A DNA stretch of 64,000 nucleotides, taken from Athripsodes cinereus. Its lineage: Eukaryota > Arthropoda > Insecta > Trichoptera > Leptoceridae. Within the stretch, counting starts at the first letter, position 1, and each line of letters starts with the position of its first letter. The position numbers were made by a program, and so were the translations under genes. The stretch lies in the NCBI GenBank assembly GCA_947579605.1, contig OX388322.1, positions 186,001-250,000 of the forward strand, in the 5' to 3' direction. Of this stretch, positions 7,107 through 60,754 are shown piece after piece. Under the pieces are notes generated by a model. That model saw nothing but the letters and a program-made list of their open reading frames with translations. It made no database searches and was not told the DNA's origin.

Positions 7107-7480
7107 ATTCTTTTTCTTTGGTTTCAATCTTGTGAATTGGTTTGCAGCAAGGCTCTGCATTTATCTTTCCATTAGATACGTTCTATCCTGCGAGATCAGC
7201 AGCTTATAACCTCGCATAGGCTTTCAAGGTATTCTCGACGAAGGCGCCACCAACGATTTGTTCTCTCAGTCATCTCTTCTATTATTTCTTGCAGAAAATG
7301 TTCGTGACGCGGACTAACTGCATAAACAATACATATTTGGACTAAAATAAATAAAATAAACTAAATAGGAGTCCTTGGACTCCTGAAATATCCGAGAAAT
7401 AAAGATATTTCAACATATTTGGACTCCTGAAATATCTGACAAAGTTATATTCACTGGTCAATTATAGATTTAATATATTT
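7107..7480. other. Unassigned sequence with a decayed coding-like block
   Basis: On the minus strand ~7175-7310 reads as a broken frame containing ERTNRWWRLRREYLESL, suggestive of a retroelement protein but too short to assign. At ~7375-7435 the words GGACTCCTGAAATATC are duplicated ~55 bp apart. ATTT at 7477-7480 is the left target duplication of the transposon that follows. Confidence 0.3.
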
Positions 7481-7512
7481 CTTTGATGGGCGGACATAAC
7501 AGTATAACTGCA
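7481..7512 (+). repeat. Left terminal inverted repeat of the transposon
   Basis: 32 bp starting CTTTGATGGGCGGACATAA. Its inverse is at 11454-11485 with one mismatch. Confidence 0.92.
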
Positions 7513-7830
7513 TTTTTGACCATTTTACGATTTATATGAGAAAATGTGCCTTGTGTATGCCTGCATCAATGGTCTTAACAGTATAGTTATACCAGTACTC
7601 AAAACATAAATAAACAACTTTGTGCCTAATAAACTAACTTATTATACTTGAGCTCATAAGTATAAGATCACTTATACTCGTAATGACAATTACCTCTTTA
7701 GCTCAAAGATTTGGTTCAAACAGAATAAAAATACTTATACTAGATGGTACACACGTGCAAAAAGTAACAAGAGAAAGTTCTTCGGTTTCATAAGTATAAG
7801 TGTATCTTATTCTGTTAAAGCCACCGATAA
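7513..7830. promoter_or_regulatory. Left subterminal motif array of the transposon
   Basis: Repeated AGTATAAG/CTTATACT-type words occur at ~7573-7590, ~7658-7682, ~7728-7742 and ~7788-7805, in both orientations. Clusters of short repeats just inside the ends are typical transposase-binding regions; the role here is inferred. Confidence 0.5.
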
Positions 7831-7982
7831 TACTTCTAATAATGTTTTATGTCGCTTGGCGTGCCTATCAACTTGTACTATTGTGACCGCCATGAAGTTT
7901 GTCATGAGTTACGAGTAGTTTAGACATTTGCTTTGCATTGTTGTGATTTTACTTGTGTTCCTCAATTAATTATCATTACAAA

Positions 7983-10900
7983 ATGAAAAGATCTCGGCGT
8001 TTTATGCAAATGATGAAGAATTTAAACCTTCCCAACAAGGCTTGTGGTAAGTATATAAACTTTGAATAATTTTTCCTATTTATATCAGTAAATTTAATAA
8101 TCCTACAAATTCTAACCTCATAAAAGTAGAATACCAAGGAGCACATTTAATCATATGCCAAATAGAAATTAAATTCATTTCCTCTATGGTTTTTTTCAAC
8201 TTCAGATCGTTTTTATATCATTGTTTATTATAAAATAGAGGAATACCTGTTTTATTTTAAAACCTTTCTATACCTAACCTATATGGTGTTTTATCTTTAA
8301 TATGATGGTGCCTTATTCTTTATCTGAGATTAATGTTAATGTATATTCAATTGATATTCTATAGGAGCTCTTAATGAAGGTGTTTTGGATTCCTCATTAA
8401 ATAATAGTAATGAAACCAACAATGTGCTAGTGGATACACTTTCACCAAGCAATGAGAAAATACAATCATTGTCAGATGACAGTGTTTTACAAGTTATAGG
8501 TATGTGCAATGTATCTATATATAAGTATCTATAATATACCTAACTATTATATTTAAATTTAAAAATACGTAAATCTTTTATTGGAAATTAAATGTTAGTT
8601 ATTGTGATATTGGATAAATTTAACATAATTTACAATAATTTGTTTTTCTAGAAACATGCTACGATGGTATTGTTTTGCAGCCCACAATAAATAATTTTGG
8701 CGAAACTAATTACTTGTCAATGAACACCCCATCAACAAGTAACGAAGTAATGTCATCGGTGTCTGATGGCGACAATGTTTTACACGTTCTAAGTATGTTC
8801 ACTATTCATCTCAAGAATAAGATATAAAAAAATATTTTTCATTTTGCTTGATCTGTTTTATCATAACATTATATAAATTTAAATTTCTCATAATATTGTA
8901 TGATATAATTGTTTCACATTTGATTACAATTTTCACAAAATATTTTCCAGGTGGACACCATCAGACTGTTTTGAAGCCCGCATTAAATAATGAATCTGAC
9001 ATTCTAGGAGGGGTTATCTCTTCAAACGATATTCTCATTGATGAATGCCCTTTAACAAATGGAAACGAAGAACTGATTGTAAGCAAAAACATTTTGGATA
9101 GTCTTGATAGCGATTTTAGTAGTGACGACACTGATAAAGACCCTAACTATGTTCCACACTGTGAAGATTTACTAAGTACCCATACGGAACCACAAAATAC
9201 ACTACTACCAGTTATCAGTATTTGTAACAGTCAAGAAAATGGAAATAATACTGATAATAATACAAAGGCGGTTATGAATACCAGAAAATACAGAGCAGAC
9301 AAAAAAACAAAAAGGAATACCGGTATATCTTATACCACCCTTAAGGGAAAAACTGTGAGAAATAGATGTATGAAAATATTACCTAATTGTCGTATGAAAT
9401 GTAATGAACGCATCCCTGAATTCATCAGAGAAATTTTTTTTACTGAATATTGGGCTCTTGGAGAGTACTCAAAAAGAGTAGCATATGTAGGAAGTCTGAT
9501 TGATTCTATGGAAACTGCTCGACCAATAAAGCGAACTACCAATGTAGTTATTATAAAAAATCGAAAATATACAAATAGGTTTTTTTTCAAAATACACGGA
9601 AAAAGGGAGAACGTTTGCCGAGGCTGTTTTATGAAAATATTAGATGAAAGTCAAATGTTTGTAACAACTGTCATCCAAAATAAAAATAAATCTTTGACAG
9701 GCTTGACTCAGGATGACAAGAGAGGAAGTATTGTGCCAATCCACAAACATTTTGATGAAGAACTGGAGAATGTGAGAAAACACATAAATTCATTTCCCTC
9801 TTACGAATCACACTACACCAGAAGAACTAACGACAAGAAATATTTACCTGCGCATTTAAACATACAATTAATGTACAATGCGTATCGTGAAAGCGTGACA
9901 ACAAAGCCTGTCTCACGCAAAACTTATTCTCAAGAATTCCACAAGCTGAAATTAAAATTTAAGTTGCCAAAAGTTGACACATGCCATCTTTGCGATGTTC
10001 TCAAAATGAAAATTGAGACAATCGCAGATTCAAATGAAAAAAATAATATTGAAAATGAGCAAAAAAATCACCATATTTTAGCAGATTCTGCATTTGTCTC
10101 TAAACAAGCAGATAAAGAGAGGGCCCAGAATGACAGTACTGTAGTCAGTTACACATTTGATTTGCAGCAGTGTTTGCCAACACCATATCTTAATAGCTCT
10201 GTATCGTTTTATAAACGACAATTGTGGACGTACAATCTAACTATACATAATCAAGCTTCCGGAGAAGTGACATGTTTTATGTGGCATGAGGCTGAAGGTG
10301 CAAGGGGTGCCAATCAAATTGCAACGTGCATGTATAAGCACCTCATGAATTTATCTGATGATATTAAGCATGTTGTACTCTATTCAGATGGCTGTGGTGG
10401 CCAGAATAGAAATTCTCACATTTCGTCAATGTTTTTAACATTAATGCAAGAAAAAAAAACAATTGAGATTATTGACCACAAGTTTATGGTCAGTGGCCAT
10501 AGTCATATGGAATGTGATGTTGATCATGGTTTGATTGAAAAACAAAAAAAAAAGAATGCTCTTCCAATATCACATCCTTGTCACTGGTACCACTTGGTTC
10601 GGTCGGTAGGAAAGACAAAATTTATAGTCAAGGAACTGATTCATAGCGACTTCATGGATTTCGCTTCACTTCTAAGATCTAAATTAGTCCTAAGAAAAAA
10701 AAATACAGCAGGAGAAGTTTACAAATGGCACAATATAAGATGGTTCAGGTATACACAAGAGCCCGGAGAAGTCTTTTATAAGGAAACATTAGATGTAGAA
10801 AGCGAATTTAAGTCTGTAAGTTTTTTGAGACGAGGAAATAGAAATCCTACACTTAAGCCAGGCAAATGTTATCATGATGTTCTTCCAATATCCAAAGAAA

Positions 10901-11019
10901 AGAAGAAGGATATTTTGGCGCTTTTACCGTTAATTCATCCTGTGTATCACGATTTCTATAAAAATTTAAAGGATGGTGATGTCCCAGACTCATTGCCGGA
11001 TATTGAAGAATTTGAATAA
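7983..11019 (+). CDS. Putative transposase, DUF7869-type, four exons, 802 aa
   Basis: Spliced from 7983-8046, 8365-8499, 8652-8792 and 8951-11019. Donors are GTAAGT, GTATGT and GTATGT; acceptors are ATAG, CTAG and CCAG. All three introns are phase 1 and the frame stays open to TAA at 11017-11019. Reading exon 4 alone from 8848 would take intron sequence as an N-terminus. The start ATG at 7983 opens MKRSRRF. Residues 1-230 are acidic and serine/asparagine-rich, with a 46-residue repeat (VLxxxINN-like motif at 28, 74 and 120). A basic patch lies at ~225-236 (KYRADKKTKR). Cysteine pairs C336/C339 and C458/C461 may bind zinc. Family hallmarks are DDKRG at 368-372, HINSFP from 391, FDLQQCLPTP around D517, YSDGCGGQNRN around D593 and GHSHMECDVDHGLIEK (D636, D638, E643). 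The last three blocks look like an RNase-H-fold acidic triad (inference). AATAAA overlaps the stop. Location between terminal repeats supports a transposase role. Function is not proven. Confidence 0.85.
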
Positions 11020-11453
11020 ATGATTTTATGTAATATCTGTGCTATTTTTTTTTTTTGCAAATAAACCTGTATTATTATTTCACAAAATAAAAATAAGTAT
11101 TTCTGAAAACAATGGTTTTAATAAGATAAATATGCGCTCTTTTGTCAGATTTTCAGTGGCACAAGTAGTACAAGATGGTCTCAGTAATATAGGTAGACTA
11201 TTTATATCATTAATTGAGCGGTACAAATAGTATAAGTTGGTTCTAGTAGTATAAGTGGATACATTTCTGTCCCATCTTTAATGGTTCAAATAGTATATGT
11301 TGAATATTTTTATTATTTGCATAAATAACACCAATGTGGTTAAATAGATGAAATAATCAGTAAATAATAAATCATTTCTCAAAATATGAGTTCTGTAGCT
11401 CAATAATTGGGTTCGTAATAATGTTTTTTTGCTCTCCTGAAAAGTTATACTTT
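11020..11453. promoter_or_regulatory. Transposon 3' region with right subterminal motif array
   Basis: Possible polyadenylation signals AATAAA are at ~11015 and ~11060. From ~11155 to 11300 there are repeats of the form (G)TACAAATAGTATAAGTTGGTTC, matching the AGTATAAG words of the left end, and another at ~11442. I infer transposase-binding sites. Confidence 0.5.
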
Positions 11454-11485
11454 TGCAGTTATACTCTTATGTCCGCCCATCAAAG
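11454..11485 (-). repeat. Right terminal inverted repeat of the transposon
   Basis: The inverse of 7481-7512 with one mismatch, followed by ATTT at 11486-11489, matching 7477-7480. Confidence 0.92.
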
Positions 11486-11541
11486 ATTTATTTGTAATAT
11501 GTACTGAATGACTGTATGTTTTGCTTGGATAATTAATAAAA

Positions 11542-11546
<5 letters not shown>

Positions 11547-11572: not shown

Positions 11573-11577
11573 ACAAT

Positions 11578-11820
11578 CGACCGGTGTGGCGCGGAGGCTA
11601 ACGCACTTGCCTTTGAGTCACGAGGTCCCGGATTCGATTCCCGGCCAGGACAAAATGAAAAATGACCTTTTTCAAATCGTCTTGGGTCTGGGTGTTACAT
11701 GTAGGTATATGTTTTCAGTGCGTTGTATATATAAATGTATCGTCGCGTTAGTACCCATAATACAAAATTCATATCTTAGTTTGGGACTAGCACGGTTTGT
11801 GTGAATTTTCTATACATGTT
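11578..11820 (+). mobile_element. SINE family S1 (copy a), tRNA-derived
   Basis: The tRNA-like head begins GACCGGTGTGGCGCGGAGG. It has an A-box-like TGGCGCGGAGG and a B box at ~11631-11643 (ATTCGATTCC, against consensus GGTTCGANTCC). The body carries GGGTCTGGGTGTTACATG and GTCGCGTTAGTACCCATAAT, shared with the minus-strand copies at 58476-58711 and 60255-60479. SINEs of this type are transcribed by RNA polymerase III and moved by a partner LINE. The partner is not identified. Confidence 0.85.
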
Positions 11821-29852: not shown

Positions 29853-29911
29853 ACAGAGTTTAGCTGGCAAACAAGCTGCATGTGATAAAAATACAATTTG
29901 TCCTGTCCTAT
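29853..29911 (-). repeat. R1 fragment (copy 10)
   Basis: TTTAGCTGGCAAACAAGCTGCATG and TTTGTCCTGTCC match antisense R1. It is cut on the right by the LINE-C tail at 29912. Confidence 0.55.
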
Positions 29912-30483
29912 TCATCATCATCATCATCAGTTGCTCTACAGCCGGTTGTGAGCCTTGGCCTCCTCCAACATTCGCCTCCATCTCCCCCTATCTTGGCATG
30001 TACTTCTCCAATCCCTGATGCCAATGATGTCCACATCCTTCTGAACAACATCCATCCAACGGAGTTTGGGTCTACCAACGCTACGTCTACCTTGTGGTCT
30101 TGTATGGAGGATTTTTTTTGGCACTCTTTCCTCTCCACGTGCCCAGCCCATCTCAGTCTTCCAACTTTGATACATTTTACTATGTTGGGCTCATCGTACA
30201 AGTTGTAGACTTCTTCGTTGTATCGAATTCTCCAAACTCCGTTGTCCCGCATAGGTCCGAATATCCTTCTGAGTATCTTCCTTTCAAATATTAAAAGGGA
30301 TGCCTCATCCTTTTTACTCAAAACCCAGCATTCGGATCCATACATGAGTACTGGCCGCAGTAGTGTTTTATAAATAGTGATCTTTGTTCTTCTCGACAAC
30401 ACTCGAGATGTTAGATGTTTTTTTAATCCGAAGAAGCATTTATTAGCAGTTAAGATTCGGTGTTTTATCTTTTGCATGTTCAT
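29912..30483 (-). pseudogene. LINE-C reverse transcriptase, C-terminal portion, frameshifted
   Basis: Minus-strand LINE with a (GAT)n 3' tail at 29912-29929. The upstream frame (stop side 29908, start near 30483) reads MNMQKIKHRI..ANKCFFGLKKHL, SRRTKITIYKTLLRPVLMYGSE and GRLRWAGHVERKE. About 30115 the frame shifts, and the adjoining frame continues with PQGRRSVGRPKLRWMDVVQKD, IIGIRDWRS and GRWRRMLEEAKAHNRL. These blocks, in this order, are the standard C-terminus of insect LINE polyproteins after the palm domain. No catalytic residues are included. Confidence 0.8.
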
Positions 30484-32061: not shown

Positions 32062-33435
32062 ATAATGAGTTACAATCCATTGGATTGGTCTGCAACGAGT
32101 TTGGTTTTTCTTCTCCATTCGTCTCTATTCTCCGCCAGTCTTTTCAGCTCTACGTATGAGCCACAGTTCATATCACTCTTCAGTTGGTCCATATATGCGT
32201 CTCTTGGTCGGCCTCTGCCATTTGTCCCGTCGGTCTTACCCTCCGCGATGGCTATGAGTAGTCCTGGGTGCCTGATGTTGTGGCCAATCCAGTTAGCTCG
32301 TTGTTGGCTGATTCTCTTAAGGAGTTGCCTTTTTTCGCCTACCCTGGTTAATACTTCTTCATTTTCGACGTGCTCCGACCAATGGATCTTAAGCATGCGT
32401 CTGTAGCACCACATTTCAAAGGCCGCCAACCGTCCGCTTTCACTCTTGCTGATGGTCCATGTCTCACAACCATAAAGCAGAATGCTCCATACAAAGGCTT
32501 TAGTAAGGTTTTTCCTTACGCTTAAGTCAATATTTGGGGATTCCAATATCTTCGATTTTTTGTTAAAGGCAATCCTTGCCTGGTTTATTCTGCTTACAAT
32601 TTCCGATTTGGAGCGTCCATCCTGGTTTATTCTGCTGCCCAGGTACACGAATTCACTTACTTGTTTGATGCTCACTCCATTTATGGCAATGTTCGCAGTC
32701 GCTTCCTCTCTTCCAACGACCATACATTTTGTTTTTTCTTTATTTATTTTCATGTTGTACTTTGACAACAGTATACTTTCCATTTTTCCTAAGGCTTCCG
32801 TTCTCGGAGTCTGCGAGCAGTGCTATGTCGTCAGCATATCTTATCATGTCGACCTTTTTCCCATTTATTTTTACTCCTGTCCAGTTCTTCATTTCATCTC
32901 TCAGTTCATCAATGGCTCGCTGTATATAGCAGTTAAAGAGAGCTGGCGACATTGAGCATCCTTGTCTTACACCTTGTTCGACCCTTGCTTCTGCACAGCT
33001 CTCTCCGCTTTTAATCACAGCCATTTCGTTCTTGTATAAGCTCCAGATTGCTCTTCTGTCTTTATAACTCATTCCTATCTGGTTGAGGGTGTTAAAAAGT
33101 TGTTCCCATTCTACTTTATCGAATGCTTTTTCAAGGCCGATGAATGCTATGTATGTGTTTTTATTAATTGCTATTCTCTTTTCTAGAGTAAGTCTGAGAC
33201 TCAGGATTGCATCTCTTGTACCTGTCTCTTTGCGGAATCCAAATTGATCTTCTGTAAGTGTTTCGTTTATTTTATTTTCCGCCCTTTTCATTATAATGTT
33301 GGTGAGTATCTTAGAAGCGTGTGATATCATGCTTAAGGTTCTGTGTTGTTCGCACTTTGTAGTGCCTACTTTCTTAGGAAGCGCTCGTATCAGACATTTG
33401 GCAAAGTCCTCAGGTATCTCTCCTGTGTCATACTA
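32062..33435 (-). pseudogene. LINE-D reverse transcriptase, truncated and frameshifted
   Basis: Minus-strand non-LTR element, 5'-truncated near 33435. Upstream of the first Met the frame already reads GEIPEDFAKCLIRALPKKVGTTKCEQHRT in pieces, the usual fingers region. The first frame (33330 to 32740) has FGFRKETGTRDA, motif A as FIGLEKAFD, VRQGCSMSPALFN and motif C as YADD. The catalytic Asp expected in motif A (FID.EKAFD) is Gly here. A one-frame shift near 32790 then leads into KINKEKTKCMVVG, FVYLGSRINQDG, SILLYGCETWTIS, RANWIGHNIRHPG, RGRPRDAYMDQLK and a stop near 32070. The tail is a short TA run. The enzyme is dead by both point mutation and frameshift. Confidence 0.85.
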
Positions 33436-51654: not shown

Positions 51655-53094
51655 GTTGTATACTTAAAGGAAGCCGTTGTATGTCCGATATACAAGAGTG
51701 GGAAAAAAGATGATATAGGGTGCTATAGACCCATAAGTTTATTAAATTCACTATCGAAAGTAATTGAAACAGCCGCTAAATGTAGATTATTGGATTTCTT
51801 TGAAAAAAATAATATTTTATCTGAAAAACAATTTGGCTTTCGCAAAAACAGGGGTACACAAGAGGCGATTGGTTATCTCACACAAAGAGTTGTCAATATA
51901 TTAGATAAGGGGGAAAAATGTATTACTGTATTTCTTGATCTCGCAAAAGCTTTCGACACAGTCTCCCATGCATTGTTGTTAGCAAAGCTGTCGAAACTGG
52001 GGATTCGTGGAACGGCACATAAGTGGTTTTCTGACTATTTGACTAGCAGGACACAAAAAACAAAAATTGGAAATTACTTGAGTGACAGGGCGCACATCAG
52101 GTTCGGAGTCCCACAGGGAAGCGTACTGGGTCCAATTCTCTTCCTCACGTACATCAACGATCTGACGAATATTGTCCTGGATTACGGAGATGTAGTGTCA
52201 TTTGCTGACGATACGGCACTTATTTTTCATGGTGGAACATGGGACAGTGTTCATGAGAGGGCAGAGAGGGGACTGAGTCTGGTGAAGAGATGGCTGGACT
52301 CTAATCTACTAACTCTCAACGTGGACAAAACTAATTACATGACAATCAATATAACAAACAGAGACGATGACTATGTAAAAAATAAAACAATTAAAATACA
52401 CAACTGTGACACTGTTACCGCAAACATACTACCATGCAATTGTCCAATCACTAAAAAAGTAAGAAATGCTAAGTACCTCGGTATATTGATCGATGAAAGA
52501 TTCGGCTGGAAAGAGCACATTGCAAATACAGCAAATAGACTCAGAAGTACCTTGCACGTCTTCAAAGAGGTGAGGAACATGCTGCCTATCAGTATGATGA
52601 AGACCGTATACTTTGCTCTGGTGCATAGTATTTTGTCGTATGGTATTCTTGGTTGGGGGGGAGCTGCACTGACAGCTCTGGATCCATTAATAAAGGCTCA
52701 GAAATCAATTATCCGAGTAATCAACAAAAAACCTTACAGATTCCCATCAGCTGCTCTCTTCCAACAATTCGGTGTATTGGACATAAGACAGACATATACA
52801 AAAAATATAATCTTACACTACATTAAGCACGGGCACTTACAGACACAGATAACGCACAATTTATCGACAAGATGCAGAAATAAACAATTTTACAAAGTAC
52901 CAAAAACGAGGACCAAATTTGCACAAAGACATTTTACTTTTCAGGCACCAAGACTCCTTAACAAAATACAGGACAATGTACTGACTAAACGACAAATGAC
53001 AAACAACTCCTTACCTAAAAGACTCATTACGGACTGGTTGCTTAAAATTGGACGCGGCGAGACAGAACGTATACTTAACTACATACCGGCTTAG
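51655..53094 (+). CDS. LINE-G reverse transcriptase, 5'-truncated but open
   Basis: An open frame runs from the truncation near 51655 to TAG at 53092-53094 (~480 codons, no start codon of its own). Domains in order: fingers (AVVCPIYKSGKKDDIGCYRP, ISLLNSLSKVIE), EKQFGFRKNRGTQEAI, palm motif A FLDLAKAFD with its first Asp at 51937-51939, RFGVPQGSVLGPILFL, motif C FADD (Asp codons 52207-52212), LNVDKTNYM, a thumb with KYLGILIDERFGWKEHI, SILSYGILGWGG, and a basic C-terminal region ending LNYIPA. Both catalytic blocks are intact. It lacks an endonuclease domain, so this copy cannot transpose by itself. The sequence is of the Jockey/CR1-like group; the exact clade is not assigned. The long undisturbed frame suggests recent insertion. 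Confidence 0.88.
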   Translation, partial: VVYLKEAVVCPIYKSGKKDDIGCYRPISLLNSLSKVIETAAKCRLLDFFEKNNILSEKQFGFRKNRGTQEAIGYLTQRVVNILDKGEKCITVFLDLAKAFDTVSHALLLAKLSKLGIRGTAHKWFSDYLTSRTQKTKIGNYLSDRAHIRFGVPQGSVLGPILFLTYINDLTNIVLDYGDVVSFADDTALIFHGGTWDSVHERAERGLSLVKRWLDSNLLTLNVDKTNYMTINITNRDDDYVKNKTIKIHNCDTVTANILPCNCPITKKVRNAKYLGILIDERFGWKEHIANTANRLRSTLHVFKEVRNMLPISMMKTVYFALVHSILSYGILGWGGAALTALDPLIKAQKSIIRVINKKPYRFPSAALFQQFGVLDIRQTYTKNIILHYIKHGHLQTQITHNLSTRCRNKQFYKVPKTRTKFAQRHFTFQAPRLLNKIQDNVLTKRQMTNNSLPKRLITDWLLKIGRGETERILNYIPA

Positions 53095-60254: not shown

Positions 60255-60479
60255 ACATAGACAATTCACACACATCGAGCTAGTCCCAAACTTAGATGAA
60301 TCTTGATTATGGGTACTAACGCGACGATACACACATATACAATGCACTATATACATATATATGTAACACCCAGACCCAGGACAATTTGAAAAAGGTCATT
60401 CTTCACTTTGCCCTGTCCGGGAATCGAACCCGGGACCTCGTGACTCAAAGGAAAGAGCTCCGCGCCACACCGGCCGACA
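60255..60479 (-). mobile_element. SINE family S1 (copy c)
   Basis: Antisense, close to copy b: GACAATTCACACACATCGAG, TAACACCCAGACCCAGG, GGGAATCGAACCCGGG and CGCGCCACACCGGCCGAC. A few bases are missing between the two promoter boxes (AAAGGAAAGAGCTCC). Confidence 0.88.
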
Positions 60480-60754
60480 TGAACAATTTATGTTGAACAA
60501 TTATACTTAACTCAGATTTGTTTATAAATTATCTGCAGTACGTAATATAATTATGTAGGTACTAATTTTTTTTGTCAGGTAGATTTTACCTATTCATTTA
60601 AAATTTATAAAAATTCTTTCCATGATTTTTTAAAAATTGAAATATCAGAACTACAGATGTTAAATTGTATGGATAACGATTCTAATTTGAGAATGTATAG
60701 AAATATTTATCTTATAAATAGGCCAATCTATAAAAAAAACTTCATTGTTGATTT

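Follow-up and report, generated by a model that had tools for sequence, protein, structure and literature searches.

The window, i.e. the 64,000-nucleotide stretch of Athripsodes cinereus DNA analysed here (contig OX388322.1, positions 186,001 to 250,000), contains a 4005-bp element at window positions 7481–11485. This DNA transposon is intact and arose recently (Table 1). Its terminal inverted repeats (TIRs) are identical in 31 of 32 positions, and a 4-bp target-site duplication (TSD), ATTT, lies directly outside both ends. An earlier note, made from the letters alone, had described these 32-bp, one-mismatch TIRs, the duplication and a single four-exon gene; the end-to-end comparison agreed with its description to the base. 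The first 19 TIR bases had only two matches in the window at ≤3 mismatches, namely the two ends, with a shuffle mean of 0.00 (n = 100). Identical 4-mers at the spacing of the element occurred at 0.65% of window positions, and the AWWT form at 5.6%. Because of the 0.65% baseline, and because an empty site elsewhere in the genome carries one ATTT, the ATTT duplication is beyond chance.

The four exons joined at GT..AG borders into a frame of 802 aa with zero internal stops, in keeping with the gene structure noted earlier. Exons 1–3 should be regarded as a model built on splice signals; protein conservation is concentrated in exon 4. The Pfam family PF25273 (DUF7869) matched residues 550–650 of the protein. 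Membership is marginal, since the 576-aa part encoded by exon 4 scored 26.2 bits and the full protein 24.1 bits, against a curated cut-off of 26. In a Pfam scan of eight DUF7869 members, PF25273 matched all eight at E below 1.

Rfam gave no match within the window. Just beyond the right flank, after a poly-A run, a tRNA-like stretch at ~11577–11652 was seen by eye as a candidate SINE head; ARAGORN did not call it, and the sole tRNA called in the window was a tRNA-Lys at 60409–60483. Judged by eye, the open frames at 950–1444, 29908–30483, 32070–33330 and 51790–53094 resemble fragments of retrotransposon reverse transcriptases.

Table 1. Features of the element in window coordinates, with the terminal sequences of the related families B–F.
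Feature	Position	Strand	Remark
TSD, left copy, ATTT	7477..7480	.	single ATTT in empty paralogous sites
Left TIR, 32 bp	7481..7512	+	31/32 identical to right TIR
Left AGTATAA words, 6 copies (putative sites)	7501..7799	both	starts 7501 (in TIR), 7642, 7659, 7672, 7735, 7793
Exon 1 (model)	7983..8046	+	GT donor at 8047
Exon 2 (model)	8365..8499	+	splice signals
Exon 3 (model)	8652..8792	+	splice signals
Exon 4, including stop codon	8951..11019	+	well-conserved part of the 802-aa protein
RNase H-like catalytic core, residues 506–650 (predicted)	10126..10560	+	
D517 codon, first catalytic Asp (predicted)	10159..10161	+	conservation; register with HIV integrase D64
D593 codon, second catalytic Asp (predicted)	10387..10389	+	conservation
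D636 codon, most likely third catalytic acid	10516..10518	+	conservation; register with HIV integrase E152
E643 codon, probably not catalytic	10537..10539	+	K in one clade
Right AGTATAA words, 4 copies (putative sites)	11229..11465	both	starts 11229, 11248, 11445, 11459 (in TIR)
Right-end box TTTCAGGAGA, 44–53 nt from end	11433..11442	-	4/6 families, nearly same distance
Right TIR, 32 bp	11454..11485	-	pairs with left TIR
TSD, right copy, ATTT	11486..11489	.	directly abuts right TIR
Family B, terminal sequence			CGACACCTGAAAGG
Family C, terminal sequence			GAAGGGCTGTGGG
Family D, terminal sequence			CTGTACCTCAGGGG
Family E, terminal sequence			GAATTGATTATTTGA
Family F, terminal sequence			GAATCGATGAATG

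Predicted fold and catalytic residues

The confident AlphaFold2 model contained an RNase H core resembling that of retroviral integrases; the earlier note had proposed to look for an RNase H core around D517, D593 and E643. All three residues were present under these numbers. Conservation was assessed in 360 proteins, collected with three queries as the best 120 each of 309, 585 and 218 matches. With gapped rows omitted, D517 was found in 336/336 aligned proteins, D593 in 355/356 and D636 in 348/349. Moreover, D517, D593 and D636 were all retained in each of the seven further DUF7869 proteins compared from the host genome, which are 21–33% identical to the window protein. The position of E643 was occupied by Glu in 118/119 and 107/109 proteins of two of the sets and by Lys in 118/120 proteins listed with the family F query; within this genome, the family E and family F proteins (loci L049 and L050) also have Lys there.

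We read the register with the integrases from the ends of the alignment ranges, which assumes no gap within the last helix. For the catalytic residues we take the numbers to be D64 and E152 in HIV integrase, D128 and E221 in PFV, and E157 in ASV. In the HIV alignment, core residue 5 corresponded to residue 57, which places D517 on D64, and core residue 145 to residue 166, which places D636 on E152. The same core residue corresponded to 235 in PFV (D636 on E221) and to 171 in ASV (D636 on E157). The first range end in PFV (core residue 1 on 116) leaves D517 one residue off D128 and counts against this register. A whole clade has Lys in place of E643, whereas D636 is retained and coincides with HIV E152. 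Judged by conservation and the model, the catalytic set is therefore most likely DDD (D517-D593-D636), and the third acid proposed earlier most likely has to be moved from E643 to D636.

The integrases of HIV, SIV, PFV and ASV, as well as Mos1 and SETMAR, share the RNase H core and the order of the catalytic acids with our model. Identity in the structural alignments was, however, ≤15%, and the third acid of the retroviral integrases is Glu, in contrast to Asp here. Mos1 is a DD34D enzyme, and its alignment to the whole model had an rmsd of 7.8 over 226 residues. The target duplications of retroviral integrases, Mos1 and SETMAR are unlike those described below. With the whole model as query, Foldseek returned zero matches at E < 0.001; for the core alone, the top rows belonged to HIV reverse transcriptase and PRP8, in each case the RNase H domain, and not to transposases. 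The viral predicted structures yielded one match at E < 0.001; it was a giant-virus transposase of the IS4 family, and its TM-score was low. The profile search of solved-structure sequences yielded no DDE enzyme, its best match (E 0.027) being a DnaJ-type protein. C260, C264, C336, C458, C461 and H487 were also conserved in the listed relatives and look zinc-binding.

Dispersed copies and empty sites

The earlier note had suggested a genome search for additional elements bearing the same ends, as well as for empty ATTT sites; the host genome contained both. The 716-Mb assembly contained four further copies of the window family (family A) with both ends, each flanked by its own 4-bp TSD, so that such duplications do occur at other loci. 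Within aligned blocks of more than 400 bp, the copies on C25, C21 and C12 shared 99.4–100% identity with the window element; two short blocks were 98.5% (C25) and 94% (C12) identical. Their flanks read ATAT/ATAT (C25), ATAT/ATAT (C21) and AAAT/AAAT (C12). The gene was damaged in all three: exon 4 had gaps with stops in C25; C21 lacked exons 1 and 2, along with the beginning of exon 3, and had one stop in exon 4; and part of exon 1 was absent in C12. The window copy is therefore the only intact one of these four. The copy on C8 is older and longer, with ATAT on both sides; its ends, 10.9 kb apart, were taken as one element with insertions, the middle of which was read in part. Matches with a single end were excluded from the copy and TSD counts.

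MITE-like short derivatives on C3, C15 and C4 were decayed, and none of the three had a matching TSD. Nested in the C25 copy (C25:9612900-9621300, L009) is an insertion of ~3.07 kb that has TTAA close to its ends and, by eye only, resembles piggyBac; another insertion there measures ~256 bp.

For the empty-site search, the flanks of the window element were joined with one ATTT and compared with the host genome, and the best 40 of 1189 candidates were scored. Thirty-nine of the 40 crossed the junction unbroken at 96–100% identity, and the remaining one was the locus itself. These unbroken repeat copies with a single ATTT indicate that the element jumped into a repeat copy and duplicated ATTT. 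The insertion context (~7450–7480 and 11490–11543) is a high-copy interspersed repeat with at least 39 further matches over ~87 nt. In the corresponding search for an insertion of family F, introduced below, 38 of the 40 scored matches were other places, all crossing the junction; the six sites fetched each had one ATT at the junction, preceded by A, G or T.

Related families, target sites and shared terminal motifs

In the genome scan with PF25273, the best 150 of 404 candidates were scored and all were above the cut-off, giving at least 150 matches in the host, with the window copy outside these rows. None of 14 control genomes had a match. Many of the scored matches fell into groups of equal open-frame length (552–694 codons). 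We sampled five such groups through two copies each; for one group the flanks of a further seven copies were added, and for another an end that had been missing. All five proved to be TIR elements with distinct ends, families B–F. Including the window family, the TIRs of the six families measure 30–38 bp and the elements 2585–4018 bp. The terminal bases differ among the families, although visual inspection shows a similar start in E and F and a few common bases in B and D. For family B, the left end had 19 genome matches, 15 of them at 99–100%, so amplification is recent. Family B copies (L042, L043, L052–L069) vary in length near the right end, beside a ~150-bp direct repeat.

Both ends were preserved in 20 copies (A 5, B 9, C 1, D 2, E 1, F 2), and all 20 were flanked by identical 4-bp sequences: ATAT in 11, AATT in five, ATTT in two, and AAAT and AATG in one each. 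Nineteen of these TSDs have the AWWT form, the exception being the AATG of one family B copy. This count omits L044 (family C) and L048 (family E), neither of which showed a left TIR, and the MITE-like L014/L025, L015 and L027 with mismatched flanks. hAT elements make 8-bp duplications, and we rejected this superfamily in view of the 4-bp TSDs. A piggyBac or Kolobok element would share the TSD length of 4 bp, yet this identity is exceedingly improbable: passages of PMC9587614 give TTAA-specific targets for both, whereas TTAA was seen in 0/20 TSDs, and none of the eight proteins had a Pfam match to their transposases.

The two noncoding ends of the window element (965 bp) contain the word AGTATAA 10 times, against 0.54 expected, a count equalled in 0/300 shuffles. 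In the intervening 3037 bp of exons and introns it occurred 0 times, against 0.75 expected. These words are candidate binding sites of the transposase.

Families A, B, D and E have CAGGRGA in common, 47–48 nt from the right end, despite their different TIRs, and families B, D and E share TGAC.TTTT, 46–47 nt from the left end. When 11-mers with ≤2 mismatches at the same place were considered, the right end gave 4/6 and the left end 3/6 families, and in both cases 0/300 shuffles gave as many. When 8-mers were used instead, 1/300 shuffles attained the value of the right end and 0/300 that of the left end. We must also note that the idea of shared boxes arose from inspecting the very ends on which it was then tested. 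The boxes are a lead and no proof, and the ends may also share a distant origin. A further reading is that the DUF7869 elements form a very large arthropod lineage that is still amplifying and recognises its ends in a way of its own, and that may merit a superfamily apart from Sola2. We consider this rather unlikely. On that account, the asymmetric pair, TTTNCAGGRGA ~45 nt inside the right end and TGAC.TTTT ~46 nt inside the left, would be a common internal signal by which the transposase tells left from right.

Proposed assignment to Sola2-type transposons

We interpret the element as an autonomous Sola2-type cut-and-paste DNA transposon, whose gene encodes a DDD transposase of the Pfam family DUF7869, and place the probability of this reading at about 0.87. 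The ends, the nearly always AWWT 4-bp TSDs, the empty sites, the near-identical dispersed copies and the conserved acids were observed directly; together with the predicted RNase H core and DDD set, they support the transposase function that the earlier note had attributed to this family, and the single gene almost certainly encodes the enzyme moving the element. The first guess of the note, Sola, fits the printed target site, the 4-bp TSD, the DDD triad and the size. According to passages of PMC3627910, Sola2 makes 4-bp AWWT duplications, which include ATAT, AAAT and ATTT in amoeba elements; the TSDs reported here are alike in length and in AT-rich form. Sola elements are described in parts of PMC10741241 as having a DDD transposase, mostly 2–9 kb in length and with TIRs very variable in sequence, and the present families are alike in all three respects. 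On the strength of target, TSD length and triad as printed, the element is most likely of the Sola2 type, a known kind, and DUF7869 most likely the transposase of Sola2-like elements, the likeness to Sola2 being one of printed features only.

There are also differences from Sola2. The TIRs of 30–38 bp compare with 12–13 and 21 bp given for the amoeba elements in passages of PMC3627910. Moreover, the window element has no second open frame of ≥120 aa, hence no Fanzor-like partner of that size. Could DUF7869 then constitute its own cut-and-paste superfamily, sharing the AWWT target and DDD with Sola by chance? We regard this as unlikely. Sola2 was compared by printed description only, and the terminal bases differ across the six families, both of which speak for separation. 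However, target site, TSD length, DDD and element size all match what is printed for Sola and Sola2, and the printed Sola TIR range of 11–1124 bp covers the lengths found here. Sola elements are also reported from moths, as insertions in a baculovirus (PMC4735498, PMC8634313), and from a wasp as Sola2-derived MITEs (PMC7822920), and Sola1–3 MITE families are described in insects in passages of PMC5199201.

A gene captured as a passenger, in an element moved by another transposase, is very improbable. One gene per element is in itself no proof of a transposase role, and the scan for further genes covered the window element alone. Nevertheless, the window element has no open frame of ≥120 aa other than the DUF7869 gene, the encoded protein has an RNase H core with the DDD set, and such a gene is present in all six families, whose ends differ.

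As a Sola2-type enzyme, the transposase would bind the TIRs and nearby AGTATAA words, perhaps through its N-terminal region, where the conserved Cys and His residues lie. The DDD site would then cut the element out, and the excised element would be joined to a target of the form A-[AT]-[AT]-T that has been cut in a staggered fashion. Host repair would convert the 4-bp stagger into the 4-bp duplication. We infer that the element is currently active.

The tie between DUF7869 and Sola2-type elements and the corrected triad appear to be new; neither the name DUF7869 nor the accession PF25273 was found in the literature searched. If the assignment is true, the Pfam family gains a function, and most DUF7869 proteins are transposases or their remnants, to be masked and not counted as host genes. 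The revised triad offers concrete residues to test, and the internal boxes common to several families offer concrete sites. With at least 150 matches and several near-identical families, candidate transposon tools and tests of horizontal transfer between insects come within reach.

Among the matches listed, the closest insect and arthropod PF25273 proteins reached 59% identity, and the relatives with an organism name were from insects and one spider; none of the listed matches could be linked to the published amoeba Sola2 elements. They belong to the same sequence family and are annotated only as a domain of unknown function. Pattern scans of viral contigs and of bacterial and archaeal genome contigs, and tblastn against phage records, revealed no relatives. 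Many insect relatives are annotated as 'uncharacterized protein' or 'DUF7869 domain-containing protein'. Two relatives from Callosobruchus analis have extra Pfam domains, PF13359 in one and PF01490 beside PF25273 in the other (P0335 and P0324), and are perhaps gene models that fuse neighbouring genes.
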